A stretch of DNA of 64,000 bases from Halanaerobium sp. MA284_MarDTE_T2. Its GTDB lineage: Bacteria; Bacillota; Halanaerobiia; Halanaerobiales; Halanaerobiaceae. Numbering within the stretch: the stretch's first letter is position 1; every line of letters starts with the position of its first letter. The notes below the pieces were generated by a model, which searched no databases, was not told the DNA's origin, and was given only the letters and a program-made list of their open reading frames with translations. A program made the position numbers and the translations under genes. The DNA is taken from positions 62,001-126,000 of the forward strand of contig NZ_QPJE01000004.1 of NCBI RefSeq assembly GCF_003337245.1, given 5' to 3'. This document shows, piece by piece, positions 1,339 to 20,816 of this stretch.

Positions 1339-2313
1339 TTGACAGAAACAAACAGGGTATTTCGTATAATTAAGATGATTATGTTGCTAAGACAGCCATA
1401 TGGCAGATGGGATGTTAATAAAATTACAGAGACTTTTGATATTTCTGCCCGTACTTTTCATAGAGATAAGAAAATTATGGAAGAACTCGGCATTCCAATA
1501 TATTATGACAGACATTTAAAAGAGTATAAAATACTGGAGACATTTAGATTAGAAAGTCCCAATTTAAACAAAGAAGAAACCGAAGCTATTATGCTGGCAG
1601 CAAAAGAATATAAAAATAAGAATTTTCCTATGAAAAAGGAGCTGGAGTCTGCATTAGCAAAAGTTATTAATTCACTACCTGAATATATAAAAGGGAGTCT
1701 GGGTACTTACATAAATAGTTATGAGATAATTTCTGATCCATTTGTTGATTTAAAAGAACACAGGCAAAAATTTAAGCTGATAAAAAAATCTATTGAAAAA
1801 CAGGAGAGCATAATAATCGATTATTATGCTCTGGGAAAAGATGAAAAAAGTACAAGAAAGATAAATCCATATAATATATTTTTTAATAATGGTGCACCAT
1901 ATTTAATTGCTTTTTGTAATTTGCGTGGTGAGATCAGAACTTTTAGAATTGACAGAATAAAAAACATAAAATTTACTGATGAAAGTTATACTATTCCCAA
2001 TGATTATTCTCTGGATGAACAGCTGCACAATTCCTGGGGTGTTGAACAAGGAGAGGAAGAGCTGGATGTTGAAGTAAAATTTACAGGCAGAGCCGCCCGC
2101 TTTGTTCCGGAATACCAGTGGACTGATAATCAGATAATAAAGAAGTTAGCCGATAATGAAATAATATTTTCTGTAAGAACTACCAGCAGAGAAGAAATAA
2201 AAAAATGGATTTTAAGTTATGGTGCTGAAGCCGAGGTCTTAAAACCTGAAGAATTAAAACAGGAAGTTGCAGAGGTAGCAGAAAAAATGTGTAAAATTTA
2301 TGAAAAAAACTGA
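1339..2313 (+). CDS. WYL-domain transcriptional regulator with N-terminal HTH
   Basis: A 324-residue regulator of the DeoR/YafY-like WYL family. Residues about 1-65 form a winged HTH (ARTFHRDKKIMEELGIPIYY is the usual recognition-helix region). Residues about 135-215 hold the WYL domain (SIIIDYYALGKDEKSTRKIN, PYLIAFCNLRGEIRTFRIDR). The C-terminal part (about 235-320) is the WYL C-terminal extension with a REEIKKWILSYG motif. The start is a TTG at 1339 behind a GGAGAGG ribosome-binding site. WYL domains bind nucleic-acid-type or nucleotide ligands and often regulate phage-defence and CRISPR loci. It lies 278 bp upstream of cas3 in the same direction, so control of the cas operon is plausible but is inference. 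Confidence 0.85.
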   Translation: MTETNRVFRIIKMIMLLRQPYGRWDVNKITETFDISARTFHRDKKIMEELGIPIYYDRHLKEYKILETFRLESPNLNKEETEAIMLAAKEYKNKNFPMKKELESALAKVINSLPEYIKGSLGTYINSYEIISDPFVDLKEHRQKFKLIKKSIEKQESIIIDYYALGKDEKSTRKINPYNIFFNNGAPYLIAFCNLRGEIRTFRIDRIKNIKFTDESYTIPNDYSLDEQLHNSWGVEQGEEELDVEVKFTGRAARFVPEYQWTDNQIIKKLADNEIIFSVRTTSREEIKKWILSYGAEAEVLKPEELKQEVAEVAEKMCKIYEKN

Positions 2314-2591: not shown

Positions 2592-4970
2592 GTGATTAAA
2601 ATAAACGATTTAATTCATGAGAATTATTTAAAAACCAATAGCGGAAAAACAACTACTAACTTTTCTCCATTTAAATATCAAAAGGAAGTAGCAAAGACAA
2701 TATTAGGTGGTCAAAATGTAATATTACAGGCTCCAACCGGAGCTGGTAAGACTCTTGCTTCTATATTACCATTTATTATAGCAAATGAAGAAAATTATGA
2801 CTTTCCTAAGAAATTAATATATTCTACTCCTAGAAGAACATTAGTTAATAGCCTGTTCAACGATATAAGTAAAGAAATTAATAAAGGTTGTTTTAATAGA
2901 GATTATAATGTCACTGTACAAACTGGAGAACATAAAGAAGATAGATATTTTACTGGTGATATAGTTTTTACAACCTTTGATCAAAGTTTATCTTCAGCTT
3001 TAAGTATGCCAATTTCTTTATCTAATAGATTGGCTAATATAAATGTCGCAGCAGTTTTATCTTCATATTTAATATTTGATGAATTTCATCTATTTGATTT
3101 AGAGGGATCATATACAACTACAGTTTTATTATTAGAAAAATTAAAAGAAATTGTACCTTTCTGTATTATGACAGCTACTCTTTCTAATAAAAGAACTAAT
3201 GATCTTGCAGATAAATTAGATGCTAAAGTTATTCGAGCCGATCAGAGAGAATATTTGGAAGATATAGTTACTCAAAAAGGAAAAGAACGTAGAATTAATG
3301 TAAATAATAGAACGATGAATGCTGAAGAAATATTTGATTTACATACCCAAATAAATGGTCCATCAAAAAAATCTATAGTAATGTGTAATAGAGTAGATAA
3401 TGCACAGAAAATATATTCAGATTTAAAATCTATAATTAATAAAAAAGATTACAATATTAATTTGATTTTAATTCATTCTAGGTTTTTAAATAATGATAGA
3501 AGTAATAAAGAAAAAAAAATAAAAAAATTATTTAATAAAAAAAATAGTAATAGTAATGTAATATTAGTTTCTACCCAAGTTATAGAAGTTGGAATTGATA
3601 TTACCTCGGATATTATGCATACAGAAATTTCTTCTATAGATTCATTTTTACAGCGAATTGGACGCTGTGCAAGATACCAAAATGAAAAAGGGGAAATATT
3701 TGTTTATGATGTTTTAAACGATGGTAAGAAAAAATATCTTCCTTATGATGAATTGATAACTTTAAAAACCTTTAAGCATTTAGAAGATATTAATGGACAA
3801 ATTTTGACATCTGAAAAATCTCAAGAAATTATTGATCAAATCTACAGTAAAGAAACAAATATTGATTTGCAGATTAAGGAAAAGACTGATTTTACACCTA
3901 ATAGTTTTATTATAGAGAGCTGGAGTTTTCCAGATAAAAAGAGATATAAAGATTTAATTAGAGATGTAGTAGGATGCAATATCATAATAAAAAAATGGAT
4001 AGTTGATGGTGATTCTCCATATAATTATCAAAGTTTAAGTATTTCCCCCTGGACTCTTAAATCAAAGATAAAAGGAATTGAAGAAGAGACTTCTCAGTGG
4101 TCAGTTAAACAGGTGATTGAGCAGGAAGATGACAGTGATTTTAAATATACTTATAAAAAAATAGATTCAGAAAAAATATATGCTAATGAAACTTATTTAT
4201 TAAATCCAGAATTTTTTGCTTATGATAAAGAAAATGGGTTGCTTTTTAATCAAAGTGGTATAGAATTTAAAAGACTGCCCAAAAATCAGCAGGAAGATGA
4301 GTATAATAATCAAAAATATAAAGAGGAGAGCTATCTGCAGCACATTAATAGTATTAAATCTGAAGTGGATAAATATTTAGATGGAATTAAATATTTAACT
4401 AATTATTTAAAGAAACAGTTTAATTTAAATGATAGAGAATTTAAAGATATTATTGAATTAACTATTTGGGCGCATGATTTAGGAAAACTGCAAAAATCAT
4501 GGCAGGAGGCACATAAAAAAAATGAATTTAAATATATAGCTCATGGAGAAAGAATTTCTAGGCCTCCTGGTCATGCTGGAGAAAGCTTTTGGATAGCTTT
4601 ATGTATAATAGAAGATTTTGTGTTTGATTATATTAAAAAAAATGAAGTTATTATAGATATTATTGGAAAGTCAATTGTCTCTCATCACAGTATTAATTTA
4701 AATAAAATTAGTTCATATAGTATTTCTGAAGAAGTTATAAATTATTTTACAAAGATAAATCACAATTTCTTTAGTAATGACGAACTTGGAAAGTTTATGA
4801 ACCAGAAATTAGATAAATTATTTCTTACACTAAAACCTGGTGAAGAAATCACTGATTTAGCTGACGAAATAAGAATTACGTCTACAGATGAATATTTATT
4901 TTATTTTTTATTAATTAGAATTTTAAGATTATCTGATCAGGAAGCAACAAAAAATTTAAATAAGATCTAA
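2592..4970 (+). CDS. cas3: Cas3: helicase followed by C-terminal HD nuclease
   Basis: A 792-residue Cas3 that degrades DNA after recruitment by Cascade. The superfamily 2 helicase comes first: Walker A APTGAGKT (K near residue 53), Walker B DEFH at 163-166, TATLS near 195, and motif VI QRIGRCARY near 356. The HD nuclease is at the C-terminus, with H628-D629 in WAHDLGKLQ and a downstream SHHS. This is the reverse of the common HD-helicase order. The assigned start is GTG at 2592, but it overlaps the GAGGTG ribosome-binding sequence, so initiation a few codons later at a non-ATG codon (such as ATA 2601) is possible. It is the first gene of an operon that continues to 12236; cas8 starts 15 bp after its stop. 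Confidence 0.92.
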   Translation: MIKINDLIHENYLKTNSGKTTTNFSPFKYQKEVAKTILGGQNVILQAPTGAGKTLASILPFIIANEENYDFPKKLIYSTPRRTLVNSLFNDISKEINKGCFNRDYNVTVQTGEHKEDRYFTGDIVFTTFDQSLSSALSMPISLSNRLANINVAAVLSSYLIFDEFHLFDLEGSYTTTVLLLEKLKEIVPFCIMTATLSNKRTNDLADKLDAKVIRADQREYLEDIVTQKGKERRINVNNRTMNAEEIFDLHTQINGPSKKSIVMCNRVDNAQKIYSDLKSIINKKDYNINLILIHSRFLNNDRSNKEKKIKKLFNKKNSNSNVILVSTQVIEVGIDITSDIMHTEISSIDSFLQRIGRCARYQNEKGEIFVYDVLNDGKKKYLPYDELITLKTFKHLEDINGQILTSEKSQEIIDQIYSKETNIDLQIKEKTDFTPNSFIIESWSFPDKKRYKDLIRDVVGCNIIIKKWIVDGDSPYNYQSLSISPWTLKSKIKGIEEETSQWSVKQVIEQEDDSDFKYTYKKIDSEKIYANETYLLNPEFFAYDKENGLLFNQSGIEFKRLPKNQQEDEYNNQKYKEESYLQHINSIKSEVDKYLDGIKYLTNYLKKQFNLNDREFKDIIELTIWAHDLGKLQKSWQEAHKKNEFKYIAHGERISRPPGHAGESFWIALCIIEDFVFDYIKKNEVIIDIIGKSIVSHHSINLNKISSYSISEEVINYFTKINHNFFSNDELGKFMNQKLDKLFLTLKPGEEITDLADEIRITSTDEYLFYFLLIRILRLSDQEATKNLNKI

Positions 4971-4985
4971 GAAAGGAGTGAATTA

Positions 4986-6857
4986 ATGCGAAAGTTTTTT
5001 ATTGAAAAAGTTGAAGGAGACTATAGTGACGTTTTATTGGCAAGGGGGGTTGCAGAATTAGTAAAAGAAGTTTTTAATCAAAATAATTTTGAAGGAGTTG
5101 ATATTTGGATAAATAATAATGGTGCTTTTTTTGTAATAGAAAGTGAAAAAGAAATAAAAAAAGAGTATTTTAATCAATTGAATTTCAATACACTCTATCC
5201 ATTAATTTATTATGATAAGATGGATGATAAACCAAATTATACAGAAAATATTATTGATTTTACTCAAGAAAAAAAATATAAAGATTGGTCGCCTAATGAA
5301 AGGAAATCTTCATTAATAAGACAGGCAACTGGGATTCCTCTTAGTAATAAGATAATGAATGATATTTATAAAATTAATGATTATTTTTCAGAATTGGTAT
5401 ATTTGATTTTAGAACATTATTCGAATCCTACTGAGAAATTCAATGACCTAGTTGCGAAAATCGATGATTTATTTATTAATATTCAATTAAATAATTTTAA
5501 AAGTATAGTTAAGAATAATCTTAAAGATAATGAATTATCTAGGATAGAGTCAGATTTAGATGAATTATTTAATGAGTTCGAAAATTTTCATTGGAGCAAG
5601 AGAAATAAAGTTAAAGATTTGATAAAAGACAAATTAAATGAAAGTGCAAATAATTTGGAAGAAACAAAAACTATAAAAAAATTATATAATGAAGCTAAAA
5701 TTGATTTTATAACAACTCATAATGCTTTAAGTAGTTTACTTCCAAAAAGAGTTAAAGGTTTAAATAATGATGATATTTCAGCTTCTTCAAGTATTTCACC
5801 AAAAAATACTTCAGAAAATTGGTTGCGTTTATATTTGGTTTTAATTGGTTTTTATAAATCATTAATCTTACAGGGAATGCAGTCCGGGAATAGATTATAC
5901 TCAGTTATTTCTCCAAATCAAGTTTCTATTAGCAGGTTTGATAATATATATGGTAGTGTAGTGAATGGTTTTCATCCTGGTAATACCTTAGAAAAACAAA
6001 ATATTCTTTTCCTCAGTGATTTTATAATTAACCTTTTAGATAAATTAGAAGATTTTAATCAAAGTAAAAGAAGGAAAAGAAGAAGAACAGTACTAAAAAA
6101 TTATATTGAAGGAATTAAAAATGTTTATTTAGTTGATATGGGGCAAAACCATATTATAAAAAATATTTATGATTTAAATGTTCCGAATTGGATTATTTTA
6201 GATGAAGAAAAAGATAAAGTTGGTTTTAAAAAAGTTTTTCAAGAGTTTAAAGAATTGATTACACCAATTGATGATAAAAATGAAGATGTTAAATTATTTC
6301 AGGAGTTATATAATTTTTTAACAACTGAAGAAGTTGGTTCTTTATTAAGTTATTATTATCAGCATGCTTTACTTGCAATGCAGAGGCTGGGGAATAATGA
6401 GAGTGCAAAAATGTATACAAAAAGGAGTGTTAAATTTATTATGAATAAATTAGATAATGCTGGTGGGGGCGGATATTCTAAAATTCTAGAAAATGAGGGT
6501 TTTCAAAATTTTGCTAAGGCAATTAGAAACAGTACTTTAATTCCTATTTATTTAGGTAAAAAGAAAAAAATTAAATTTGGTTTGCTGCAGGATATTAGAA
6601 GAGCTTCTTTAAATAAAGACACTTTAATTACTAAACTTTCAACTTTTATGGCAGATTATAATAATGAGAATGGACTTGATAATTTTCATAATCAAAATCC
6701 TATGAGATCAAATTTAACAACTCAAGATTTTGAAGATATTGTTGCTTTAATTGATGACCATGATTCTAAAATCATTGGTAATATGCTGCTGGCTTATGGT
6801 TTTGGTAAAGATGAAAAAGTAGAGAAAGTAAAAGGAGATGAGGATAATAATGAGTAA
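4986..6857 (+). CDS. cas8: Cas8 family large subunit of the Cascade complex (subtype I-A-like)
   Basis: A 623-residue protein between cas3 and cas7, the normal place for the Cas8 large subunit that recognises the PAM and stabilises the crRNA-DNA complex. Sequence families of Cas8 diverge strongly. Here the call rests on position, size and the I-A-type neighbours rather than on a recognised motif. The N-terminal part (about 1-110) is alpha/beta; the middle is helical with a basic patch (SKRRKRRRT near 365). The last 180 residues are helical and resemble a small-subunit-like bundle. No cysteine zinc motif is visible, unlike Cst1-type Cas8. The stop codon overlaps the cas7 start by 8 bp, indicating translational coupling. 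Confidence 0.8.
   Translation: MRKFFIEKVEGDYSDVLLARGVAELVKEVFNQNNFEGVDIWINNNGAFFVIESEKEIKKEYFNQLNFNTLYPLIYYDKMDDKPNYTENIIDFTQEKKYKDWSPNERKSSLIRQATGIPLSNKIMNDIYKINDYFSELVYLILEHYSNPTEKFNDLVAKIDDLFINIQLNNFKSIVKNNLKDNELSRIESDLDELFNEFENFHWSKRNKVKDLIKDKLNESANNLEETKTIKKLYNEAKIDFITTHNALSSLLPKRVKGLNNDDISASSSISPKNTSENWLRLYLVLIGFYKSLILQGMQSGNRLYSVISPNQVSISRFDNIYGSVVNGFHPGNTLEKQNILFLSDFIINLLDKLEDFNQSKRRKRRRTVLKNYIEGIKNVYLVDMGQNHIIKNIYDLNVPNWIILDEEKDKVGFKKVFQEFKELITPIDDKNEDVKLFQELYNFLTTEEVGSLLSYYYQHALLAMQRLGNNESAKMYTKRSVKFIMNKLDNAGGGGYSKILENEGFQNFAKAIRNSTLIPIYLGKKKKIKFGLLQDIRRASLNKDTLITKLSTFMADYNNENGLDNFHNQNPMRSNLTTQDFEDIVALIDDHDSKIIGNMLLAYGFGKDEKVEKVKGDEDNNE
6441..6857 (+). CDS. Possible internal Cas11 small subunit translated from within cas8
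   Basis: An ATG at 6441 is in frame with cas8 (residue 486) and is preceded by an AAAGGAGTG sequence at 6421-6429 that looks like a ribosome-binding site, though the spacing (about 11 nt) is long. The product would be 138 residues, largely helical, ending with ALIDDHDSKIIGNMLLAYGF and an acidic tail. Known subtype I-A systems encode a small subunit (Csa5) of about this size, and none is present here. Internal translation of Cas11 from cas8 is established for some I-B, I-C and I-D systems. Its use here is inference. Confidence 0.4.
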   Translation: MNKLDNAGGGGYSKILENEGFQNFAKAIRNSTLIPIYLGKKKKIKFGLLQDIRRASLNKDTLITKLSTFMADYNNENGLDNFHNQNPMRSNLTTQDFEDIVALIDDHDSKIIGNMLLAYGFGKDEKVEKVKGDEDNNE

Positions 6858-7806
6858 AAGAGTATATTCAATTTCTATTAATGGTAAAGTTGGACTTAAT
6901 CTTCATGATTTAAATAATGAAAAGTCTGAGGGTAATCAGTTAACAACAAGAAATGTTACAATAACAAATGGAGCCGGTAAACTTGCAACAGTAAATGCTG
7001 TATCTGGAGATATGTTAAAACATATCCAGGCTGCTCATTTATTTAAAATAGCAGAAAATAACGATGATTTACCTTTATGCAGTGGATGCCAAAAATTTGA
7101 TGCTAATAGAATCACAATTGACGATAATTTTGATGAATTTACCAAAAATGATAACACTAAATCTGAGATAGTCGATGAAATGCTTAAAATGTGTGCTGTT
7201 GATGATTTAGAAGGGATATTAATTACAAATAACAATAAAAATATTGGTCGAGATTCGACAGTTGAATTTGGCTGGTTGGTTGCTGTACCAGAAGAGTTTA
7301 ATTCTGAGAACTTATTTCATGTAAAATATTCTGATTTAGAAAAAACTGAAGGCACAGGTAAAAATGAAGGACAGAATATTTTTTATCGTCCTTTAAATTC
7401 CGGCCAATATGCTGTAGTAAATAATCTTGAAATATCAAGAATAGCTTATAATGATATTTCTAAGGATTATGTATTAGATGATGATGCGATTAAAAATAGA
7501 TATCAGGCTTTACTTAAATCAATTATGATGACCTATTATTCTCCAGAAGGTGCAATGAGAAATACTCAGGCGCCTCATATGACCAGCTTTGAAGGAGTAG
7601 TAAGTATCAGTTATAGTTCAGTTCCTGCTCCAACAATTAGTGCTCTTAATCCTGATTATAAAAATGAAATATCTTCTATATCTAATACATTAAACGAAAT
7701 CGGAGAAGAAGTTGAATTAAAAGAATTTAAGAGTATGAGCGAATTTACTAATATAATTAAAGATCTTATTAATGATACTGTTCCTTATGGTGTAAAAAAT
7801 CAATAA
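6850..7806 (+). CDS. cas7: Cas7 backbone subunit, DevR/Csa2 family
   Basis: The backbone RAMP protein that polymerises along the crRNA. The N-terminus (KRVYSISINGKVGLNLHDLN, then EGNQLTTRNVTI and AVSGDMLKHIQAAHLFKIA) is characteristic of the DevR/Csa2 family (archaeal-type I-A Cas7), with the conserved SGxxLKH segment near residue 50. A C-x2-C-like pair (LCSGCQKF near 74) follows. I place the start at the ATG at 6850, which overlaps the cas8 stop and sits behind a GAGG site. A longer version starting at 6838 would have its start codon against the ribosome-binding site. Length is 318 residues, normal for the family. Confidence 0.9.
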   Translation: MSKRVYSISINGKVGLNLHDLNNEKSEGNQLTTRNVTITNGAGKLATVNAVSGDMLKHIQAAHLFKIAENNDDLPLCSGCQKFDANRITIDDNFDEFTKNDNTKSEIVDEMLKMCAVDDLEGILITNNNKNIGRDSTVEFGWLVAVPEEFNSENLFHVKYSDLEKTEGTGKNEGQNIFYRPLNSGQYAVVNNLEISRIAYNDISKDYVLDDDAIKNRYQALLKSIMMTYYSPEGAMRNTQAPHMTSFEGVVSISYSSVPAPTISALNPDYKNEISSISNTLNEIGEEVELKEFKSMSEFTNIIKDLINDTVPYGVKNQ

Positions 7807-7818
7807 GGGGGAGTTATA

Positions 7819-8496
7819 ATGTGGTTAGAAGTTGAATATATACCAACATCGTTATTTTCGTTCAAAGACATAAAAGCAACTAATACTGCTGCTACTTCAT
7901 TATTATTTCCAACTCCCTTTGGAGTTAAGATGGCTTTAATATCAGAAGCAATTAAAGAATTTAATCTGGAAAAAGGTAGAGAAGTTTTTGAACTAATTAA
8001 GGGAAGAGAAATAAAATATAATTTACCAGCAGAAGCAGTTGTAAATAAAACTTTCGGTAGAATCAATGATTTAAGAAATAAGATTGGACGTTCTAAACCT
8101 GCATACAGAGAATATGTATATTTTAATGGAAGCTTAAAACTGGCGATAAATATAGACGATATAAATCAAGAAAAAATTGAATTATTAAAGTCGTTATTTT
8201 TGAGAATTAATTATTTTGGAAAAAAAGGATCTTTTATGCAGTTTAAAGAGTCAAAAATAATTGATAATCTAAATGACAATCATTTAAAATTAATGAGTAA
8301 TGGCGAGATTGATTTCAAATTTAAATCAATTATTCAACAAACTGAAGATATTCCTATAGACGCTAGTTTTGAAGCTATAAACATTTATAATGAAAATGAA
8401 AGTTTATCTAGAGATAATAATGAAAGATTATATGTGGTTAATATAGAAAAAACTTTATCAGGAGATGGTTATCAATATTATAAAATTTCAAATTAA
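7819..8496 (+). CDS. cas5: Cas5 subunit of Cascade
   Basis: A 225-residue RAMP-fold protein directly after cas7 and before cas6, where Cas5, which caps the 5' handle of the crRNA, is expected. The N-terminus WLEVEYIPTSLFSFKDIKAT followed by LFPTPFGVKMALI fits the Cas5a/Cas5t group. The start ATG at 7819 is preceded by AAGGGGGAG. The gap to cas7 is 12 bp, consistent with one transcript. Confidence 0.82.
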   Translation: MWLEVEYIPTSLFSFKDIKATNTAATSLLFPTPFGVKMALISEAIKEFNLEKGREVFELIKGREIKYNLPAEAVVNKTFGRINDLRNKIGRSKPAYREYVYFNGSLKLAINIDDINQEKIELLKSLFLRINYFGKKGSFMQFKESKIIDNLNDNHLKLMSNGEIDFKFKSIIQQTEDIPIDASFEAINIYNENESLSRDNNERLYVVNIEKTLSGDGYQYYKISN

Positions 8497-8508
8497 AGAG
8501 GGATAATG

Positions 8509-9462
8509 ATGGATTTAGCAATAACAACTTTAAAATTTAATTTAATGGCGTTAGAAGATTTATATCTGCCAGAACACCCTGGTTCAACATTTCGGGGTGC
8601 TTTTGGTAGATCTTTAAGAGAAATTTCCTGTAGTTTTGATGATAAAAAATGTAAAGGATGTAATTTGAAAGATAATTGTCCCTATTCTTTGTTTTTTAAT
8701 CCATTTCTAACAGAAAAAGATAAGCTTAAGACCTCTAAAAGATTTAGAAACAAATTGCGTCCTTTTATTTTCAATACAGATAATAATTATAAAAAACAGT
8801 ACTCATCCGGAGAGGAATTAACATTTAAAATTAGAATTTTTGGTTATATGAAGCAGTTTATCCCTTATGTAATTGAAAGTTGGAAAAAATTACAGCAGAT
8901 TGGTCTGGGTTCTGGAAGGAGTAATTTTTTATTAAAAAATATTTGGTCAGAAAATGATTTAAAAGGAAAAAAAACAAAAATCTTTGACTATAAGGATACT
9001 GAGATTAAAAACATTAATAACACAATTTATATTGATGACATAAAGAAAGAAGAATCATATTTTAATTATAAAGTTACTCTGCTGTTTAAAACTCCAACAT
9101 TAATTAAAGTTAATGGGAAATATATCAAGAATAATTTAGAATTTTCTTTATTAATGCGCACTTTATTTAGACGTTTATCAACAATGGCTGCTTTTTATGG
9201 AGAGGAAATGAGTATTTATTTTAATGACTATCTAAATAAAGCTGAAAAAATAAAATTGCTTTATAAAGATTTGGAGTGGAACGACTGGTATCGCTATTCT
9301 GATAAACAGAATAAAAAAATTGAAATGCAGGGATTCACAGGGGCAGTAAGTTATGAAGGAGAAATAGCAGATTTTTTACCATATTTAATCTATGCTCAAT
9401 ATTTAAATTTAGGGAAAAATACTGTTTTTGGTCAGGGTAACTTTGAACTTTTAAATTATTAA
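8509..9462 (+). CDS. cas6: Cas6 crRNA-processing endoribonuclease (Cys-rich N-terminal type)
   Basis: About 317 residues. The N-terminus has the PGSTFRGAFGRSLRE segment and a cysteine cluster (CKGCNLKDNCPYSLFFNPF, near residues 47-66) of the CRISPR_Cas6 family associated with I-A, I-D and III systems. The C-terminus has the glycine-rich GFTGAVSYEGEI and NLGKNTVFGQGNFEL signature typical of Cas6 RAMP loops. It would cut each repeat 8 nt from its 3' end to leave the ACUGAAAG handle. The start is one of two adjacent ATGs; 8509 is 6 nt behind AGAGGG, whereas 8506 is only 3 nt away. cas1 begins 19 bp downstream. Confidence 0.85.
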   Translation: MDLAITTLKFNLMALEDLYLPEHPGSTFRGAFGRSLREISCSFDDKKCKGCNLKDNCPYSLFFNPFLTEKDKLKTSKRFRNKLRPFIFNTDNNYKKQYSSGEELTFKIRIFGYMKQFIPYVIESWKKLQQIGLGSGRSNFLLKNIWSENDLKGKKTKIFDYKDTEIKNINNTIYIDDIKKEESYFNYKVTLLFKTPTLIKVNGKYIKNNLEFSLLMRTLFRRLSTMAAFYGEEMSIYFNDYLNKAEKIKLLYKDLEWNDWYRYSDKQNKKIEMQGFTGAVSYEGEIADFLPYLIYAQYLNLGKNTVFGQGNFELLNY

Positions 9463-9481: not shown

Positions 9482-10492
9482 ATGAAGGAAATCTATTTAA
9501 ATAATTATGGACAGTTTTTGGGTAAAAAAAGTGAAAGATTGGTAGTTAAAGAAAAGGGTAAGATTAAGAGAGAAGAACCTTTTTTTAAAATTAGTCGAGT
9601 GATAATTACTTCTAAAGGTATAAGCTTATCAACTGATGCCATTGAAGAATGCATGAAAAGAGGAATTCAGATTGATTTTTTGAATTTTAAAAATGAACCA
9701 TATGCAAAATTAAGCTCTCCTTTTTTACAGGGAACTGTTAAAACTAGAAGGGCTCAACTGACTGCTTTTGATGATCAAAGAGGTGTTTCTCTAGCCAAAG
9801 CATTTGTTTTAGGGAAAGTAAGTAATCAGGTTAATCTGTTAAAATATATGAGTAAATATAGAAAAAAGAGAAATCCAGAAATCTATAATTATATGTGTAA
9901 GCGAATTAAAGAAATTGAAAAAATGATAAATGAAATATCAGTTATTGAAGATGAAAAAATTGATTTTATTAGACAGGATATAATGACTTTAGAGGCACAT
10001 GCAGCTAAAAAATATTGGCAGACAGTGGCAAAAATATTACCTGAAGAGGTTGGATTTACAGGTAGAGAGACCAGAGGTGCAGTTGATCTTGTAAATTCAA
10101 TGCTTAATTATGGTTATGCTATTCTTTATTCACATGTTCAGGGTGCAGTTATCTTAGCTGGTTTGGATCCATTTGCTGGTTTTATGCATGTAGATCGCTC
10201 TGGTAGGGCTTCTTTAGTTTTAGATTTTGTAGAAGAATTTAGACAACAGACAGTAGATAAAACAATTTTTGCAATGATTAATCGCGGTACTAATTTGGAA
10301 GTAAAAGAAAATAGACTAACTAAAAAAACCAAAAATAAATTTAGAAAAAAATTAAAGAAAAAATTTGATAGTTATCATCAGTATGAAGGCAAAAAAGAAA
10401 AAATCAAAAATATAATTCAGAGACAAGCCAGACATATTGCAACTCATCTTAGAGGTGAAAGAGAATATGAACCTTTTGTAGGGAGCTGGTAG
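9482..10492 (+). CDS. cas1: Cas1 integrase
   Basis: A 336-residue Cas1, the catalytic subunit of the spacer integration complex. The metal ligands are visible: E171 in MTLEAHAAKKYW, H236 in FMHVDRSGR and E251 in LVLDFVEEFRQ. The TGRETRGAVDLVNSMLNYGY and VQGAVILAGLDPFAGF segments are classic Cas1. The ATG at 9482 has a TTGGAGG ribosome-binding site. It is separated from cas2 by 2 bp, so the two partners are co-translated. Length and all key residues are intact, so adaptation should be functional. Confidence 0.97.
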   Translation: MKEIYLNNYGQFLGKKSERLVVKEKGKIKREEPFFKISRVIITSKGISLSTDAIEECMKRGIQIDFLNFKNEPYAKLSSPFLQGTVKTRRAQLTAFDDQRGVSLAKAFVLGKVSNQVNLLKYMSKYRKKRNPEIYNYMCKRIKEIEKMINEISVIEDEKIDFIRQDIMTLEAHAAKKYWQTVAKILPEEVGFTGRETRGAVDLVNSMLNYGYAILYSHVQGAVILAGLDPFAGFMHVDRSGRASLVLDFVEEFRQQTVDKTIFAMINRGTNLEVKENRLTKKTKNKFRKKLKKKFDSYHQYEGKKEKIKNIIQRQARHIATHLRGEREYEPFVGSW

Positions 10493-10494
10493 AA

Positions 10495-10740
10495 ATGCAT
10501 ACTCTGGTTATTTATGATATTACAGAAGACAAAACAAGAAATAAAATTGCTGAAGTTTGTAAAGATTATGGTCTCAAAAGAATTCAGTGGAGTGCATTTA
10601 TGGGAAAATTAAGTATCAACAGAAGAGAAGAATTACATTTGAAATTAGTTCAAACTTTAAAAGATAAATCTGGTGATATACAGCTCTATCCAATTTGTTC
10701 TAAAGACATGAATTTAAAAAAGGAAATAAAAAATGAATAA
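10495..10740 (+). CDS. cas2: Cas2 adaptation protein
   Basis: An 81-residue Cas2, at the short end of normal. The first strand HTLVIYDITEDKTRNKIAEV contains the conserved aspartate (D8), and LKRIQWSAFMGKLSINRRE matches the ferredoxin-like Cas2 core. Cas2 bridges two Cas1 dimers. The cas4 start lies within the last 8 bp of cas2, giving tight translational coupling. Confidence 0.95.
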   Translation: MHTLVIYDITEDKTRNKIAEVCKDYGLKRIQWSAFMGKLSINRREELHLKLVQTLKDKSGDIQLYPICSKDMNLKKEIKNE

Positions 10741-11314
10741 ACTGATACTAAATGTGACTGATATAAAACAGTATATTTATTGTCCGCGCATAATTTATTA
10801 TACTTACTGTCAGCCTGTAAGTAAGAAAAGAACATTTAAAATGGAATTTGGTAGCAAACAGCATGATATAGTTGATCAATTGGAAAAAAGAAGAACTTTA
10901 AAGAGGTATAATTTGGATAAGGGAAATAAAATATTTAAACACAAGGTATTTTCTGAAAAGTATTCTTTAAGTGGTAAATTAGATATGCTGGTAAAACAGG
11001 AAAGAGAAATAGTTCCTATTGAAATGAAGTATACTAATTCTCGACCAGGTTTAAATCATAAATATCAGCTGGCTGGTTACATGCTTTTGATCGAAGATAA
11101 ATTTGAGTTACCAGTTAGAAAAGGGATTATTCATATTATACCGACTAAAGACAGTTATTTTTATAAAAATAATGATCAGTTAAGAAAAAAAGTTAAGCAA
11201 TTAATATTTGAAATAAAAGAATTAATAGAAAAAGAACATTATCCTGATAAGGCTTCAGGATGGAAAAAGTGTAAAGAATGTGAGTTCAAAAATTATTGTG
11301 GAGATGTGGGGTGA
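10733..11314 (+). CDS. cas4: Cas4 Fe-S nuclease
   Basis: A 193-residue RecB-like nuclease. An N-terminal cysteine lies in YIYCPRIIYY, and a C-terminal cluster KCKECEFKNYCGD supplies three more iron-sulfur ligands. The catalytic core is visible as SGKLDMLV (motif II Asp), PIEMKY (motif III E-x-K) and a Q in YQLAGYMLL. Cas4 trims prespacers and selects them for PAM and length. It overlaps cas2 by 8 bp. The Csa1-type paralogue follows 4 bp downstream. Confidence 0.93.
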   Translation: MNKLILNVTDIKQYIYCPRIIYYTYCQPVSKKRTFKMEFGSKQHDIVDQLEKRRTLKRYNLDKGNKIFKHKVFSEKYSLSGKLDMLVKQEREIVPIEMKYTNSRPGLNHKYQLAGYMLLIEDKFELPVRKGIIHIIPTKDSYFYKNNDQLRKKVKQLIFEIKELIEKEHYPDKASGWKKCKECEFKNYCGDVG

Positions 11315-11318
11315 AATA

Positions 11319-12236
11319 ATGTATTTTCTTAATGAAGAAGAAAAGCTATATCTACATAAATCATTAATTCCAGAATCTAGAGATATGTATATTGATTATA
11401 ATCTTAGAGGCTGGAATTGGAATCAACCGCCTTTAGAACCGATTTATGATATTAAATTGGGAGTCGCAGAAACTGCAAATAATTACTGCAGCAGCAATAG
11501 AGACTTATATCTTCAAAAAGTCATGAAAAAGAAATTCAAAGCTAATGATAAAATGCTGGAAGGATCATTATTACACAAGACACTGATGAAATTTATTACT
11601 TCTGCAAAAAAAGAATTATATATCAATGGAATTAAAGAAGTAGAATACGATAATTTGTTTAATTTGGATAGTAATATTATTAGTGAATTAATCGGCTCAT
11701 ATTATTTTAATAACACTTCAAAAGAAAAATTGATCAAAAAAATAGAAAAAATATGGGGATTTGAATCTCAAAGAGTCAAATTTAGGATGCAGGAAGTTTT
11801 ATCTTCCCAACCATATATTGATGTTGATGCTCTAATTCATCAAGTTATTCCAATAGTAGTAGAGCAAAAATTGAACGGATCTTTTATTGGACTAAGTTCA
11901 TATTTAAGTACTGATGCCATAAACTTTTCAGAGCCCATGATAGTTGACACTAAATTTGGAAAAGAAAAAGAGTTTTACAAACTCAGTGTTACTGGTTATG
12001 CTCTTGTTATGGAATCATTATTCTCTTTTCCGGTAAATTTAGGATGTCTTGTTTATCCAGGATTCAAGAACAAAAGAATATTAATTAAAAGAGATCTATT
12101 TATTATAACTGATGAATTGCGCCAAAAATTTATTGAGCAGCGCGACGAAAAAATGAGAATGATTTATGAAGATATTGATCCTGGTATTGCCAATAATTGT
12201 TATAAAATATGTCCTTTTTATGATGAGTGTAATTAA
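11319..12236 (+). CDS. csa1: Csa1-type Cas4 family protein (subtype I-A adaptation)
   Basis: A 305-residue protein recognisable as Csa1 by its N-terminus (MYFLNEEEKLYLHKSL, then LRGWNWNQPPLEPIYDIKLG and ETANNYCSSNRDLYLQKVM) and by a C-terminal cysteine pair (CYKICPFYDEC). The middle has a nuclease-like MIVDTKFGKEKEFYKLSVTGYAL stretch (D-x-K core). Csa1 is a Cas4 relative found with subtype I-A adaptation modules. The start is placed at the ATG at 11319, 4 bp after the cas4 stop; an upstream in-frame ATG at 11280 would overlap cas4 without a ribosome-binding site. It is the last gene before the array leader. Confidence 0.85.
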   Translation: MYFLNEEEKLYLHKSLIPESRDMYIDYNLRGWNWNQPPLEPIYDIKLGVAETANNYCSSNRDLYLQKVMKKKFKANDKMLEGSLLHKTLMKFITSAKKELYINGIKEVEYDNLFNLDSNIISELIGSYYFNNTSKEKLIKKIEKIWGFESQRVKFRMQEVLSSQPYIDVDALIHQVIPIVVEQKLNGSFIGLSSYLSTDAINFSEPMIVDTKFGKEKEFYKLSVTGYALVMESLFSFPVNLGCLVYPGFKNKRILIKRDLFIITDELRQKFIEQRDEKMRMIYEDIDPGIANNCYKICPFYDECN

Positions 12237-12410: not shown

Positions 12411-12418
12411 AAATTGCT

Positions 12419-15400
12419 CTAACATTTACCTCTCCGCTTACTAGGAGACTGAAAGCAGCCAGAGCCGAGTGAAGTACCTTCTCCTAATGTTGCTAACATT
12501 TACCTCTCCGCTTACTAGGAGACTGAAAGGCAGCACAAGCCAGAAGATTATTATTAGAAATAAAAACTAACATTTACCTCTCCGCTTACTAGGAGACTGA
12601 AAGTGCATCTTATTTTGCGCCTGTGTCATCCCAGATGTAACTAACATTTACCTCTCCGCTTACTAGGAGACTGAAAGGATGGATTAGAGGATAAGTGTAT
12701 AGAGTTGGCTAAAGCTAACATTTACCTCTCCGCTTACTAGGAGACTGAAAGCCTTCGCTTCTTGACATCTGTTGTAATAATCTTTGACCTAACATTTACC
12801 TCTCCGCTTACTAGGAGACTGAAAGGTTTTTAATTAATTCATTTTTTATTTGTTCTATTTCCTAACATTTACCTCTCCGCTTACTAGGAGACTGAAAGTT
12901 TCTACAGCCTGAACGAACCCGTTCTCAATCATTTTTCTAACATTTACCTCTCCGCTTACTAGGAGACTGAAAGGCTGATTGAGCCACAATCTGTGCTTCT
13001 GTGGCTGACCTAACATTTACCTCTCCGCTTACTAGGAGACTGAAAGGATACATTGAGTTTTGGCACAATGGATGCAGGATTCTTCGGCTAACATTTACCT
13101 CTCCGCTTACTAGGAGACTGAAAGGCGCCCTCTATTGGTGGCAAACCTGTATCTTTGCTCTAACATTTACCTCTCCGCTTACTAGGAGACTGAAAGCTTC
13201 CTGTATTCATCATACCTTCTGTATCCTTCGTACTAACATTTACCTCTCCGCTTACTAGGAGACTGAAAGTCTGATTAAGTTGTGCCATATCTGACTTTTG
13301 GTCTTTCTAACATTTACCTCTCCGCTTACTAGGAGACTGAAAGTTACTTCACCTTCTTAAATAAAAATCCTACTTTATCGTCTAACATTTACCTCTCCGC
13401 TTACTAGGAGACTGAAAGGTGTCATAATAACCTGTCTGTCTGGCTTACCACTTGCCTAACATTTACCTCTCCGCTTACTAGGAGACTGAAAGTCTTATTA
13501 GCATCTTCTACACCTCTCAAACGCGTAATCTAACATTTACCTCTCCGCTTACTAGGAGACTGAAAGTCTACCCACAATGTAAGCCCATGGCTACAATTTT
13601 GACTAACATTTACCTCTCCGCTTACTAGGAGACTGAAAGAACTCATAGCCGTATCTGCCAAATGCTTCAGCATTGCCTCTAACATTTACCTCTCCGCTTA
13701 CTAGGAGACTGAAAGATTATACACTTCCTTCATTTTGCTGTCAGTAAAATCTAACATTTACCTCTCCGCTTACTAGGAGACTGAAAGATATTAATATTAT
13801 CAAAGATATTAACCATTACTTTTACTAACATTTACCTCTCCGCTTACTAGGAGACTGAAAGTTCAACTCACACTCTACCATATAGTGGGCAAGTGTACCT
13901 AACATTTACCTCTCCGCTTACTAGGAGACTGAAAGGATGACCAGCTGGAAGAGGGAGAGGCTCCACTCTCAGCTAACATTTACCTCTCCGCTTACTAGGA
14001 GACTGAAAGTTCATAGACATTACCAGCACAGTCAACCATCCCATTAACTAACATTTACCTCTCCGCTTACTAGGAGACTGAAAGCTAATATATCCCCTTC
14101 ATATATTTCTTTGCCATTTTTCTAACATTTACCTCTCCGCTTACTAGGAGACTGAAAGGCTGGCTGCGTGCCTGATCTGCTCGACCTTTGGCTTTACTAA
14201 CATTTACCTCTCCGCTTACTAGGAGACTGAAAGATGAAAAGATTATTCAGTCAAAATACAACGAAGATGACTAACATTTACCTCTCCGCTTACTAGGAGA
14301 CTGAAAGTTAACTGTAACTGCTGCATCTTGCCTTGTTGCTGTTACTAACATTTACCTCTCCGCTTACTAGGAGACTGAAAGATTAATCAGCTATAATGAC
14401 AGTGATAGAGGTTCGATCTAACATTTACCTCTCCGCTTACTAGGAGACTGAAAGAGTAAGTGCGAAAATTAGCATAGTGAGTTTCTTCAACTAACATTTA
14501 CCTCTCCGCTTACTAGGAGACTGAAAGTTCCATCAAAAGAGAATTAATTTTTATCTATATTCTCTAACATTTACCTCTCCGCTTACTAGGAGACTGAAAG
14601 GTTTAAGAGTCTGGTTATCTACTCATTTAACCTATGACTAACATTTACCTCTCCGCTTACTAGGAGACTGAAAGGCAAAAATATTTGTAGTTAGTATGGG
14701 CGATCTCTTCTAACATTTACCTCTCCGCTTACTAGGAGACTGAAAGTGTAAATCACTCTCACCTAATGCTGAACCTCTCCATCTAACATTTACCTCTCCG
14801 CTTACTAGGAGACTGAAAGCCCTTTCTCTTTTCATATATCAAATTCAACCTTTAACTAACATTTACCTCTCCGCTTACTAGGAGACTGAAAGTTGTTCTT
14901 TTCCACCTTCCATTTCCGTTACTAAAGTCTAACATTTACCTCTCCGCTTACTAGGAGACTGAAAGGATGTAGTTATGAATACTAAGTGGACTCAGAAGGG
15001 CCTAACATTTACCTCTCCGCTTACTAGGAGACTGAAAGAAGATCAGGAATGTGAGGTTAGTTGATTAATGAATCTAACATTTACCTCTCCGCTTACTAGG
15101 AGACTGAAAGTTTCTGGTGATCCACTCAGTGACGCCTGTAGTATTTCTAACATTTACCTCTCCGCTTACTAGGAGACTGAAAGGGAGAGAATATCCGCTT
15201 TGACGGTGACTTGTACCAGGTACTAACATTTACCTCTCCGCTTACTAGGAGACTGAAAGTCAGGTAAATATTTGAGTCTACGCGGTATGTTAAGCACTAA
15301 CATTTACCTCTCCGCTTACTAGGAGACTGAAAGGCTTAACAGCTTGTTTCCGCAACTTACTTGCTGATAACTAACATTTACCTCTCCGCTTACTAGGAGA

Positions 15401-18400
15401 CTGAAAGGTAAGGGTAATCCTCGTGAGCTGAATGGATTGTGTCCTAACATTTACCTCTCCGCTTACTAGGAGACTGAAAGCACATTTCTGTTCCTGTTTC
15501 TATTAATGTTGTAGACTAACATTTACCTCTCCGCTTACTAGGAGACTGAAAGTTCATATTGTCTTACAGTAGCTTCAGAAGCCATTTCTCTAACATTTAC
15601 CTCTCCGCTTACTAGGAGACTGAAAGTCTGTATGCTCTATTATCGTTTCCAGCCCCATGTCTACTAACATTTACCTCTCCCTTACTAGGAGACTGAAAGC
15701 TTAATAAAACACCGCCTTCAGTTTCATTTGGTTCGCTAACATTTACCTCTCCGCTTACTAGGAGACTGAAAGCATCAGAATTAGATAATAGTAATACAAA
15801 ATATAATTTCTAACATTTACCTCTCCGCTTACTAGGAGACTGAAAGTCAATAGCAAACATTCCATTGAGTGCATACTTTCTCTAACATTTACCTCTCCGC
15901 TTACTAGGAGACTGAAAGGCAAAGTATTTATCTATCACCTTTTCCATATCATCAACCTAACATTTACCTCTCCGCTTACTAGGAGACTGAAAGCGATGTA
16001 CCAATCTAATATTTTGAGCATTGTTTCTTTCTAACATTTACCTCTCCGCTTACTAGGAGACTGAAAGGAGTCCTTTGCTAGCAGCTTTCTTAAACTTGCT
16101 GCCGGCTAACATTTACCTCTCCGCTTACTAGGAGACTGAAAGTTTTAGCAAGGTGGTAAATTGATAAAAGTAAATCTTTCTAACATTTACCTCTCCGCTT
16201 ACTAGGAGACTGAAAGAAGCTGAATCTAAACTATCCTGCATTTCTTTTACTCTAACATTTACCTCTCCGCTTACTAGGAGACTGAAAGTCATTTTCTATG
16301 CCTTCAAATTGTGGGTATGGTTCTACTAACATTTACCTCTCCGCTTACTAGGAGACTGAAAGTCAAATTTAGATTGCCTTTTATCTAATCGTGATTTGAC
16401 TAACATTTACCTCTCCGCTTACTAGGAGACTGAAAGAATCCCAGCGTTCAGACGGTGCGATAGCTCAACACGCCTAACATTTACCTCTCCGCTTACTAGG
16501 AGACTGAAAGCTCCTTTTTTTTAGCTTTTTTTGCCCTCTATACTCTATCTAACATTTACCTCTCCGCTTACTAGGAGACTGAAAGAGAAAGATATGTATT
16601 AGAAGCAGAAGAAATTGTCAGCTAACATTTACCTCTCCGCTTACTAGGAGACTGAAAGACTCATTTGGGCTTTCCAGAATATACTGGACCACTGGGATTA
16701 CTTGTTCTAACATTTACCTCTCCGCTTACTAGGAGACTGAAAGACTCATTTGGGCTACTGTCCAGCTTGCGAAATCATTCTAACATTTACCTCTCCGCTT
16801 ACTAGGAGACTGAAAGAAGTTAACCTGCACTTTACCGCCACCGTTGTTATTAACTAACATTTACCTCTCCGCTTACTAGGAGACTGAAAGAGCTGCTCTT
16901 TCATCACAGATAAACTGCTGATTGTCTAACATTTACCTCTCCGCTTACTAGGAGACTGAAAGATAAACTGGTATTTATCATAAATACACATGTTGCTGAC
17001 TAACATTTACCTCTCCGCTTACTAGGAGACTGAAAGCTGCCCGGTAACGGTGGCAAACCTACTGACTTGCTATCTAACATTTACCTCTCCGCTTACTAGG
17101 AGACTGAAAGTTAATAAAACTTTTCTGTGAACTATCAGCCTTAGCTAACATTTACCTCTCCGCTTACTAGGAGACTGAAAGTCTTCTGTTAGCTCATCAT
17201 TGTGTTTAAAGTATAAATCTAACATTTACCTCTCCGCTTACTAGGAGACTGAAAGCTAAAATAAAATCACCTTCAATCATAAACATTGGTAACTAACATT
17301 TACCTCTCCGCTTACTAGGAGACTGAAAGAATATATATCGCTGATACCACACTCCTGTATATTCCTAACATTTACCTCTCCGCTTACTAGGAGACTGAAA
17401 GCTAACTACTAATTCAGCACGTTTAGTTAATTCCATCTAACATTTACCTCTCCGCTTACTAGGAGACTGAAAGGCTATTCATACTAGAGATTTTGCTGAC
17501 TCTCTACTTTACCTAACATTTACCTCTCCGCTTACTAGGAGACTGAAAGTTCTGACATTGATGCCATCCGCTTATCTACCTTAGCTAACATTTACCTCTC
17601 CGCTTACTAGGAGACTGAAAGACACTGGTATGCAGTGAAGCAAGAGCTTCATCTTCCTAACATTTACCTCTCCGCTTACTAGGAGACTGAAAGTCGGAGA
17701 ATTCCGACACAGAGTCTGGTGATGAATTTCTAACATTTACCTCTCCGCTTACTAGGAGACTGAAAGGCTGACTTGCTATCATCAGCCTGATATTTAGCTG
17801 TCCTAACATTTACCTCTCCGCTTACTAGGAGACTGAAAGGTGCCTTCAAGATCCCTCCCTGCATTTTCAGAAAACCCTAACATTTACCTCTCCGCTTACT
17901 AGGAGACTGAAAGGTACCTGCTCATCTGTCCTCATATCGTCTGCTCTATCTACCTAACATTTACCTCTCCGCTTACTAGGAGACTGAAAGCCATTAGTAT
18001 CATTGGGGTTGTATCAGTTGTTGCGTCTAACATTTACCTCTCCGCTTACTAGGAGACTGAAAGGCTAGTAATAATAATTGTCTAGCTCTCGGTGCTAATT
18101 CTAACATTTACCTCTCCGCTTACTAGGAGACTGAAAGCTCTTTTTTCTAGCCCGGACCAGACTTTTATGATTGCTAACATTTACCTCTCCGCTTACTAGG
18201 AGACTGAAAGGAAACCTCAAGGCAACACTTTCAGCTCTTTTGTCGAATCTAACATTTACCTCTCCGCTTACTAGGAGACTGAAAGGCTTATTGTGCTACC
18301 TCCATCTTCAACAGCCTGTGATCTAACATTTACCTCTCCGCTTACTAGGAGACTGAAAGCCTCTATATTATAATAACATCTTATCCAACTCATTGCCTAA

Positions 18401-19021
18401 CATTTACCTCTCCGCTTACTAGGAGACTGAAAGATAACAAGGTTGCCGAGAGTGAGTGGGATATGGAGATCTAACATTTACCTCTCCGCTTACTAGGAGA
18501 CTGAAAGAGCAAGTATGCTGTCTAATCCGTGCTCTATAACTTCCTAACATTTACCTCTCCGCTTACTAGGAGACTGAAAGGCTGTACATTAATTGCTTCT
18601 CTTGCCATTAATTAATCTAACATTTACCTCTCCGCTTACTAGGAGACTGAAAGTCTCTGGCTAAACTTTCTTTTTGCACAAAATAACCAGTTGCTAACAT
18701 TTACCTCTCCGCTTACTAGGAGACTGAAAGCTTTATCGTCATTTTGGTTACCCCACTTAGATTTGCTAACATTTACCTCTCCGCTTACTAGGAGACTGAA
18801 AGTTCATAACCTTCATTGTTTATTTTAGCTTTTATTGCTAACATTTACCTCTCCGCTTACTAGGAGACTGAAAGTCATATCTTCACCAACATCTTCTTCA
18901 TATAATTTTTCTAACATTTACCTCTCCGCTTACTAGGAGACTGAAAGATATATACAGCAGAGTAATGAGCGAATAGAAAACTTTCTAACATTTACCTCTC
19001 CGCTTACTAGGAGACTGAAAG
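12419..19021 (+). CRISPR. CRISPR array: 90 full repeats of 37 bp, 89 spacers
   Basis: Repeats begin CTAACATTTA and end GACTGAAAG. Counting start positions by eye gives 90 full copies (first 12419-12455, last 18985-19021). Within each repeat TCTCC and GGAGA form a 5-bp stem around an 8-nt loop, and the last 8 nt (ACTGAAAG) would be the crRNA handle. Spacers are 34-41 nt except one of 48 nt (16659-16706). All repeats look identical except the one at 15664-15699, which lacks the loop G. Leader-proximal position next to cas genes and decayed copies at the other end give the + orientation. The near-perfect repeats and complete adaptation genes suggest an active locus. Confidence 0.99.
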
Positions 19022-19511: not shown

Positions 19512-20816
19512 CTAAGTATAGGAGATTTTTTCATTAACTTTTTTGAAAATATCGTCTGTAATAATAGATTTTTTGCTTTTGAAACTCTCAAGTAAAGCAA
19601 CATAACAGGCCTGATTAATCTTTCTTGGAATTCCTGAAGTCATACTGTGAAGCACAGGATAGCATTTTTTATCAATAATTTCATTCTGTATTCCGGCAGC
19701 GTTAAAATGATATTTAACATAATCTTTAGTTTCACTGAGAGAAAGTCCACCACATTCAAGAAATAATGAAACTCTTTGTTTCATGGGGATTGTCATACTT
19801 AGGTTAAGGTTTCTGTTTAAAAGTTGAGGCAGTCCTGCCAGAATTAAAGAAAAATTAGCTCCATCATCATAAAAACTTCTCAGCTCATCAAACATTTCAA
19901 TAGAAAGACTGTGAGCCTCATCAATAATAACACAGTTAAACTTACCCTGAGCATTTTCTTCATGGAAAAAATCAATAATCTGCAACCTAATATCATCAAC
20001 AATATCAATCAATAAATCTCTATTAAATTCTTTAAATGTCTGCCACAGCTCATATAGTTTTCCTTTTTCTGCATAGGAAAGATTTTTAATCTCTAAAGCA
20101 GTAGAAATAATTTCAACAAATTCCTGGCGTTTTAAAGCTTGAACTTTTTCCTCAGCAGCAATATGATCTGTAGTATTAACTTCAGCAGCAGTTTTTTCTT
20201 CAGGATGGTCTCCTGCAGCCTGAAGCTGGACTTTATCTTCCAGTGGGGTATTTAGCTGTTCTTTAAGATAATCCTGATAATTGCTTTTGATATTTTTAAG
20301 ATATTCTCTGCTGATGGTAGAATCAACTGCTGGATCTTCTTCAATGCCGGCCACTGATTTATGTTTTTCTTTTTTAAGATCAATAACTCGGGCTAAACCA
20401 TAATATTTATCCTGATAGTAAACATGCACATTACCCAGATGGAAAGGGTTGTATCTGATTGCTATCTTTTTGTTAACCAGCCTGCCGTCGATGGCATACT
20501 GATTTCCATTAAAGGAGATAACTCCATATTTGCTGACAGTTCTTTCTGCAAAATGCATAAAAGCCTGATCTAGCTGGACTGGAGAAAAATAGCGAAGGCG
20601 GCGGCCTGATTTTAAAGAACTTTCCCACCTTTTAGCTGGAGTAGTGCCCAGAGATGAATGCACTTTATCATTGTATTCTGTTTTTAACCAGGCTGAAAAT
20701 AAATCATTGAGTTCAATAATACTGCTGACTTTGTTGTTTTTTATCTCTGTTAGAAAAGAGCTCTGAACATACTGCCAGAATTTTTCAACTTTCCCTTTTT
20801 TATGTGAAGTATATGA
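19512..20816 (-). pseudogene. Fused remnant: Mu/Tn7-like transposase C-terminus plus AAA ATPase C-terminal half
   Basis: The minus-strand frame is open from 20816. It begins HKKGKVEKFWQYVQSSFLTE, the end of a DDE catalytic core including the final glutamate, continues through the HSSLGTTPAKRWE segment and a Mu-transposase C-terminal barrel (NGNQYAIDGRLVNKKIAIRY), and then passes without a stop into an ATPase from just before Walker B (CVIIDEAHSL) to the C-terminus (GIPRKINQACYVALLESF). The P-loop half of the ATPase and the first two-thirds of the transposase are missing. So one deletion joined the two genes and another truncated the transposase. A TAA codon lies immediately upstream of 20816. 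Neither activity should survive. Confidence 0.75.

Follow-up and report, generated by a model that had tools for sequence, protein, structure and literature searches.

Conserved internal translation of a bacterial cas8a, the gene for the large subunit of a type I-A CRISPR–Cas system, very probably yields a separate small subunit that sequence comparison identifies as a predicted Cas11a. The first-pass annotation of the window (the whole 64,000-nucleotide stretch of Halanaerobium sp. MA284_MarDTE_T2 analysed here) had proposed an internal Cas11 inside cas8. This proposal is supported by a sequence match of the product to Cas11a and by a start codon with a Shine–Dalgarno sequence at the Cas11 boundary in 23 of 28 homologous genes. 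What the analysis shows is a start site that is conserved, a product that matches Cas11a in sequence and no separate csa5; the case is stronger than that annotation knew, as the site is conserved across the bacterial I-A Cas8a family and is not the peculiarity of one gene.

A type I-A operon without a separate small-subunit gene

We identified a complete CRISPR–Cas operon in the window, in the order WYL regulator, cas3, cas8a, cas7, cas5a, cas6, cas1, cas2, cas4, csa1 and CRISPR array:

1339..2313, + strand: WYL-domain regulator, upstream of the operon (Pfam WYL, E 4.1e-20)
2592..4970, + strand: cas3 (TIGR01587 at 43-399; TIGR01596 HD at 605-783, 30.7 bits, below the cut-off of 43.45)
4986..6857, + strand: cas8a, large subunit, 623 aa (PADLOC Cas8a (I-A) PDLC01417, residues 353-611, E 4.6e-24)
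6838..7806, + strand: cas7, Csa2/DevR family (Pfam DevR, 2.1e-65; TIGR01875 above cut-off)
7819..8496, + strand: cas5a (PADLOC Cas5a I-A PDLC01390, E 3.1e-73)
8506..9462, + strand: cas6 (PADLOC Cas6, E 4.8e-84)
9482..10492, + strand: cas1 (TIGR00287, E 9.3e-84)
10495..10740, + strand: cas2 (TIGR01573, E 3.5e-16)
10733..11314, + strand: cas4 (TIGR00372, E 7.2e-33)
11280..12236, + strand: csa1, type I-A Cas4 family (TIGR01896, 208.8 bits, cut-off 103.35)
12414..18948, limits approximate, no strand assigned: CRISPR array (repeat search; repeat period ~74)

On these profile matches the system is of type I-A, as judged by Cas8a, Cas5a and Csa1 together with a probably Csa2-like Cas7; the Cas8a large subunit is present together with Cas5a and Csa1, and these marker proteins fit the label 'I-A-like' that the locus had been given earlier. 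The best NCBIfam match of cas7 is a type I-A family (TIGR02583, E 3.7e-34), although its 118.3 bits fall short of the family's cut-off, 212.6; the cas8a product matched no Pfam or NCBIfam family. Whereas type I-A is stated to have cas3' and cas3'' split into two genes (PMC10212523), cas3 of the window is one unsplit gene of 792 aa in which the helicase precedes a C-terminal HD nuclease domain, and we therefore file the system as a I-A variant rather than the textbook form.

The two Cas4-family genes, cas4 and csa1 (10733-12236), are adjacent and overlap by 35 bases. The CRISPR array is very long: a 35-base repeat fragment, forming a single family, occurs in it 52 times. Just past the array, a frame on the minus strand (19512-20663) combines two partial proteins, the C terminus of a Mu-type transposase (PF09299, E 5.7e-9) and the last part of an AAA ATPase (PF13401, E 3e-8). 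It is apparently a decayed transposon, of which the genome has no second copy and the fetched loci have none. Mu-like transposons are mentioned for some I-A systems (PMC12669027).

Gene-by-gene profile matches revealed no separate csa5/cas11 in the operon, and the genome holds no other convincing match to Cas11a (cas8 itself scores E 0.08 and one other match E 0.55). The lack of such a gene at the locus, remarked on in the first-pass annotation, is thus confirmed for the operon.

An internal start within cas8a

Within cas8a, an in-frame ATG at 6441 lies behind AAAGGAGTG, both located as first described, and opens a frame that runs to the end of the gene:

6421..6429, + strand: Shine–Dalgarno sequence of the internal start, AAAGGAGTG (-9.0 kcal/mol with the 16S tail)
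6441..6857, + strand: internal in-frame ORF, predicted Cas11a, 138 aa (start ATG 6441 = Met486 of Cas8a; PDLC01488 match)

The product has a calculated mass of 15.5 kDa and pI of 5.7. Among the 21 in-frame internal starts of the gene, counted from codon 13 on, ATG 6441 has the strongest anti-Shine–Dalgarno pairing (-9.0 kcal/mol), the runner-up reaching -6.3. The site of the window is not beyond chance by itself: when the gene is recoded synonymously with its own codons, 12.5% of trials attain -9.0 (P 0.125). Across homologues it is far beyond chance. It is also among the weakest of the homologues' sites, and its aligned spacing between Shine–Dalgarno sequence and ATG is 12, a value in the tail for the window's genes, most of which have 6-10.

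Met476 was considered as an alternative start and dropped, the codon not being conserved. The internal AUG lies in the loop of a predicted hairpin formed by an AU-rich inverted repeat (6433-6451). This hairpin is predicted in five of six close relatives, with one paired change in a relative, but its z-scores are -1.9 to +0.6 and shuffles match the covariation score 48 times in 500; it is not significant, and we do not claim it.

Conservation among distant homologues

The Cas8a model matched 16 of 398 genomes of the phylum. Class-by-class searches added L053-L055 and otherwise nothing new, and a plasmid search added Deinococcus gobiensis and five cyanobacteria. Viral contigs gave no relatives at the sensitivity used. 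Together with close relatives, these searches provided the 28 cas8a genes that were aligned, all of which match PDLC01417; one of them, L054, is an open frame without the N-terminal part. Further plasmid searches yielded just one incomplete match, in Allocoleopsis, which covers 35% of the query and was left out. The cas8a of L043 looks split, but runs of N in its contig point to the assembly as the cause; the start at its boundary, an ATG preceded by AGGGAGG (-12.1), is not among the counts.

At the column of Met486, an in-frame start preceded by a Shine–Dalgarno sequence (-9.0 to -17.6 kcal/mol) occurs in all 23 non-cyanobacterial genes, which come from Bacillota and one Deinococcus. The start codon is ATG in 15, TTG in six and GTG in two of these genes, for example AAAGGAGGTCTTAATT-ATG, ATGGAGGTGTTTTTA-TTG and TGAGGAGGATTATC-GTG; Deinococcus gobiensis (L047) is among those whose site is canonical. 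The boundary site is the top-ranked internal start in 18 of the 28 genes and among the top three in 23/23 of the non-cyanobacterial ones. The five cyanobacterial genes all keep ATG at the site with no Shine–Dalgarno sequence (-3.1 to -3.9; ranks 4 to 15), and their annotated cas8 starts are likewise weak in anti-Shine–Dalgarno energy (+1.3 to -4.5).

No small ORF separates cas8a from cas7 in the neighbourhoods examined (that of L044 ends before cas7). Deinococcus and cyanobacterial plasmids (L047-L052) carry this I-A family, and some of the loci adjoin type III-like RAMP genes. In five RefSeq plasmid records and one GenBank record the large subunit is a 'hypothetical protein' and no small subunit is listed.

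The site in Halanaerobiales

Of the relatives identified by name, the nearest belong to Halanaerobiales (a MAG, Halanaerobacter jeridensis and Natroniella sulfidigena), and we compared a close set of six genes (the window, L010, L045, L008, L009 and L046). An apparent stop inside cas8a of L010 proved to be the true gene end, at residue 619. Among the 23 non-cyanobacterial genes, the weakest energies (-9.0 to -9.9) belong to five of these six, and only L009 is stronger, at -13.7; recoding alone fails to reject chance for L045 (0.37) and L008 (0.30), as for the window, and the spacing is long in the window and its five relatives. These energies, together with the window's spacing of 12, are what would be expected if the internal start worked in other bacteria and were a relic in Halanaerobiales, weakened or lost, so that the window makes little free Cas11a. 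We consider this unlikely, as the internal ATG is invariant in 6/6 genes and the Shine–Dalgarno sequence is kept through two different codon pairs: four genes have AAA AGG AGT, and two have AAG CGA GGT, which pairs in another register. Codon choice at Arg480 also argues against a relic. AGA is the commonest arginine codon in all six genes, yet it never occurs at this position, the only one of 12 invariant arginine columns without it.

Test of the site against chance

The comparative evidence from 14 divergent Cas8a genes is the decisive part of the case. We scanned these representatives (maximum pairwise identity ~53%) column by column under one rule, the mean best anti-Shine–Dalgarno energy of in-frame starts; the remaining half of the 28, made up of five close Halanaerobiales genes, L042, L053, L054, L055 and the five cyanobacterial genes, was omitted. 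The Met486 column has a mean of -13.46 kcal/mol, with 14/14 representatives at -8.5 or stronger, whereas the best column elsewhere (>25 columns away) reaches -4.66 and the background over 529 columns has a mean of -2.04 and an sd of 1.03. In controls taken from the same operons, the same scan gave a best column of -4.88 for cas7 (13 genes; strong sites in <=3/13) and -5.25 for cas3 (11 genes; <=3/11). Synonymous recoding combined over the 14 representatives gives a P of 9e-11. The residues at the internal start site are not conserved, and the signal therefore lies in the nucleotides.

This pattern bears on whether the small-subunit domain is ever made on its own. It may instead work solely within Cas8a, as is said of types I-F and I-G, with the start-like site incidental, and there is a precedent in Thermotoga maritima, in which the predicted internal start of cas8b1 yielded no Cas11 in E. 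coli, as stated in PMC13199841. A strong Shine–Dalgarno sequence and an in-frame start at the same boundary in every one of the 14 divergent genes would be unexpected without selection for initiation, and we regard a purely fused domain as very unlikely. Least credible is a ribosomal pause, in which the conserved sequence would stall translation so that the Cas8 core folds before the C-terminal domain, with no initiation: in the six close relatives the Shine–Dalgarno-like sequence does adjoin a linker of variable length that follows the internal ATG, as at a domain boundary, but a pause requires no start codon, and an in-frame ATG, GTG or TTG lies downstream in all 23 genes, although these triplets account for 5.7% of all codons across the 14 representatives.

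Probable identity of the product as Cas11a

The 138-aa product matches the PADLOC Cas11a (Csa5) model PDLC01488 over profile positions 5-102 of 105 (E 1.1e-4). At E 0.01 or better, the model matched the C-terminal parts of 19 of the 28 homologues and none of the 28 N-terminal parts; the match is weak for single proteins and is absent at this threshold from nine of the C-terminal parts. When the model was run on the 398 phylum genomes, nine had matches at E 0.01 or better, seven of them within Cas8a reading frames. The matches in the remaining two were in unrelated genes, which from their translations we take to be a selenouridine-synthase-like gene and an ankyrin-like gene. An alignment of 18 full Cas8a proteins has 17 invariant columns, 12 of them within the C-terminal part. 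By these profile comparisons, the C-terminal segment resembles standalone Cas11a in sequence.

AlphaFold models of the 138-aa product and of full Cas8a, built from a four-row alignment (the window, L008, L009 and L010), have pLDDT values of 46.8 and 44.2, respectively, which are too low for the folds to be used as evidence. Foldseek found no match at E 0.001 or better. With the model at pLDDT 46.8 as query, the top chain in VIA-align is Cas10d 666-840 (Z 4.1, 111 residues, rmsd 4.0), and the list also includes 8bmw_A (SsoCsm) and 8fcj_J, a chain with 109 residues from the Cascade of a type I-B CAST; unrelated proteins, including topoisomerases, score nearly equal to Cas10d. These weak fold matches to Cas10d and a few CRISPR small subunits are consistent with a Cas11 identity and are not evidence for it. 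Sequence searches of the PDB with the C-terminal and full alignments gave no Cas protein and nothing significant.

A proposed pair of proteins from one gene

We propose that cas8a has two translation starts and encodes two proteins. Ribosomes entering at 4986 would make full-length Cas8a, of which the C-terminal 138 residues would form a Cas11a (Csa5) domain, and ribosomes entering at the internal Shine–Dalgarno sequence and ATG 6441 would make the Cas11a domain alone. That this protein is made, how many copies of it there are and what it does we infer by analogy with the Cas11 proteins of types I-A, I-B, I-C and I-D: free Cas11a would line the belly of Cascade, beside the corresponding domain of Cas8a, and would hold the DNA strand that is displaced. 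A single gene would in this way supply each large subunit with several small ones; PMC11899642 gives the number of Cas11 copies as five for I-A, three for I-B and two for I-C, I-D and I-E.

A fused small subunit has been suggested before. Makarova 2011 (PMC3150331) noted a longer helical C terminus in Cas8a1 where the small-subunit gene is missing and proposed a fusion there, adding that a separate csa5/cas11a gene is not universal in I-A, and for several type I subtypes the large subunit is noted to carry a putative small subunit as a fusion (PMC12669027). Whereas the 2011 proposal concerns a fused domain, ours adds a separately translated protein. The Cas8a model PDLC01417, by comparison, treats the whole protein as one large subunit.

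The arrangement in the window is like that of Cas11b, Cas11c and Cas11d of types I-B, I-C and I-D (McBride 2020 as cited elsewhere; for Haloferax, PMC11899642), in that an in-frame start lies towards the 3' end of the gene for the large subunit, and differs in that the large subunit is the Cas8a of type I-A. Internal Cas11 is stated for I-D, I-B and I-C in PMC10212523; a distinct Cas11 gene is stated for I-A and I-E in PMC13199841, and a separate one for I-A in PMC11899642. Compared through PDLC01488, the predicted Cas11a is like the archaeal I-A Cas11a (Csa5) in sequence over nearly the whole model and in its small-subunit size, but the archaeal protein has its own gene whereas that of the window lies in frame inside cas8a. 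McBride 2020 reportedly described internally translated Cas11 in types I-B, I-C and I-D. For Heliobacterium modesticaldum, an endogenous I-A system used for editing is described as having no Cas8a (PMC10758571). No report of an internal Cas11 in I-A was found in the literature searched, in which the scope of McBride 2020 was taken from citing papers.

If the proposal is true, internal translation of Cas11 extends to subtype I-A, for which a separate Cas11 gene has been stated (PMC11899642, PMC13199841). To rebuild these bacterial I-A systems in a eukaryote, or from genes that have been recoded, a separate cas11a would then be required, a need that has been reported for I-B, I-C and I-D (PMC10212523). 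We lean towards internal translation being the general small-subunit route of bacterial I-A in this Cas8a family, covering Bacillota, Deinococcota and, with a start that lacks a Shine–Dalgarno sequence, Cyanobacteriota. As the sequence similarity between the internal and the stand-alone form is detectable, phylogeny can test whether the change went towards fusion or towards separation. On the general reading, internal Cas11a and stand-alone archaeal Csa5 would belong to a single protein family whose gene is arranged in two ways, which would provide a sequence-level link between both ways of encoding Cas11.
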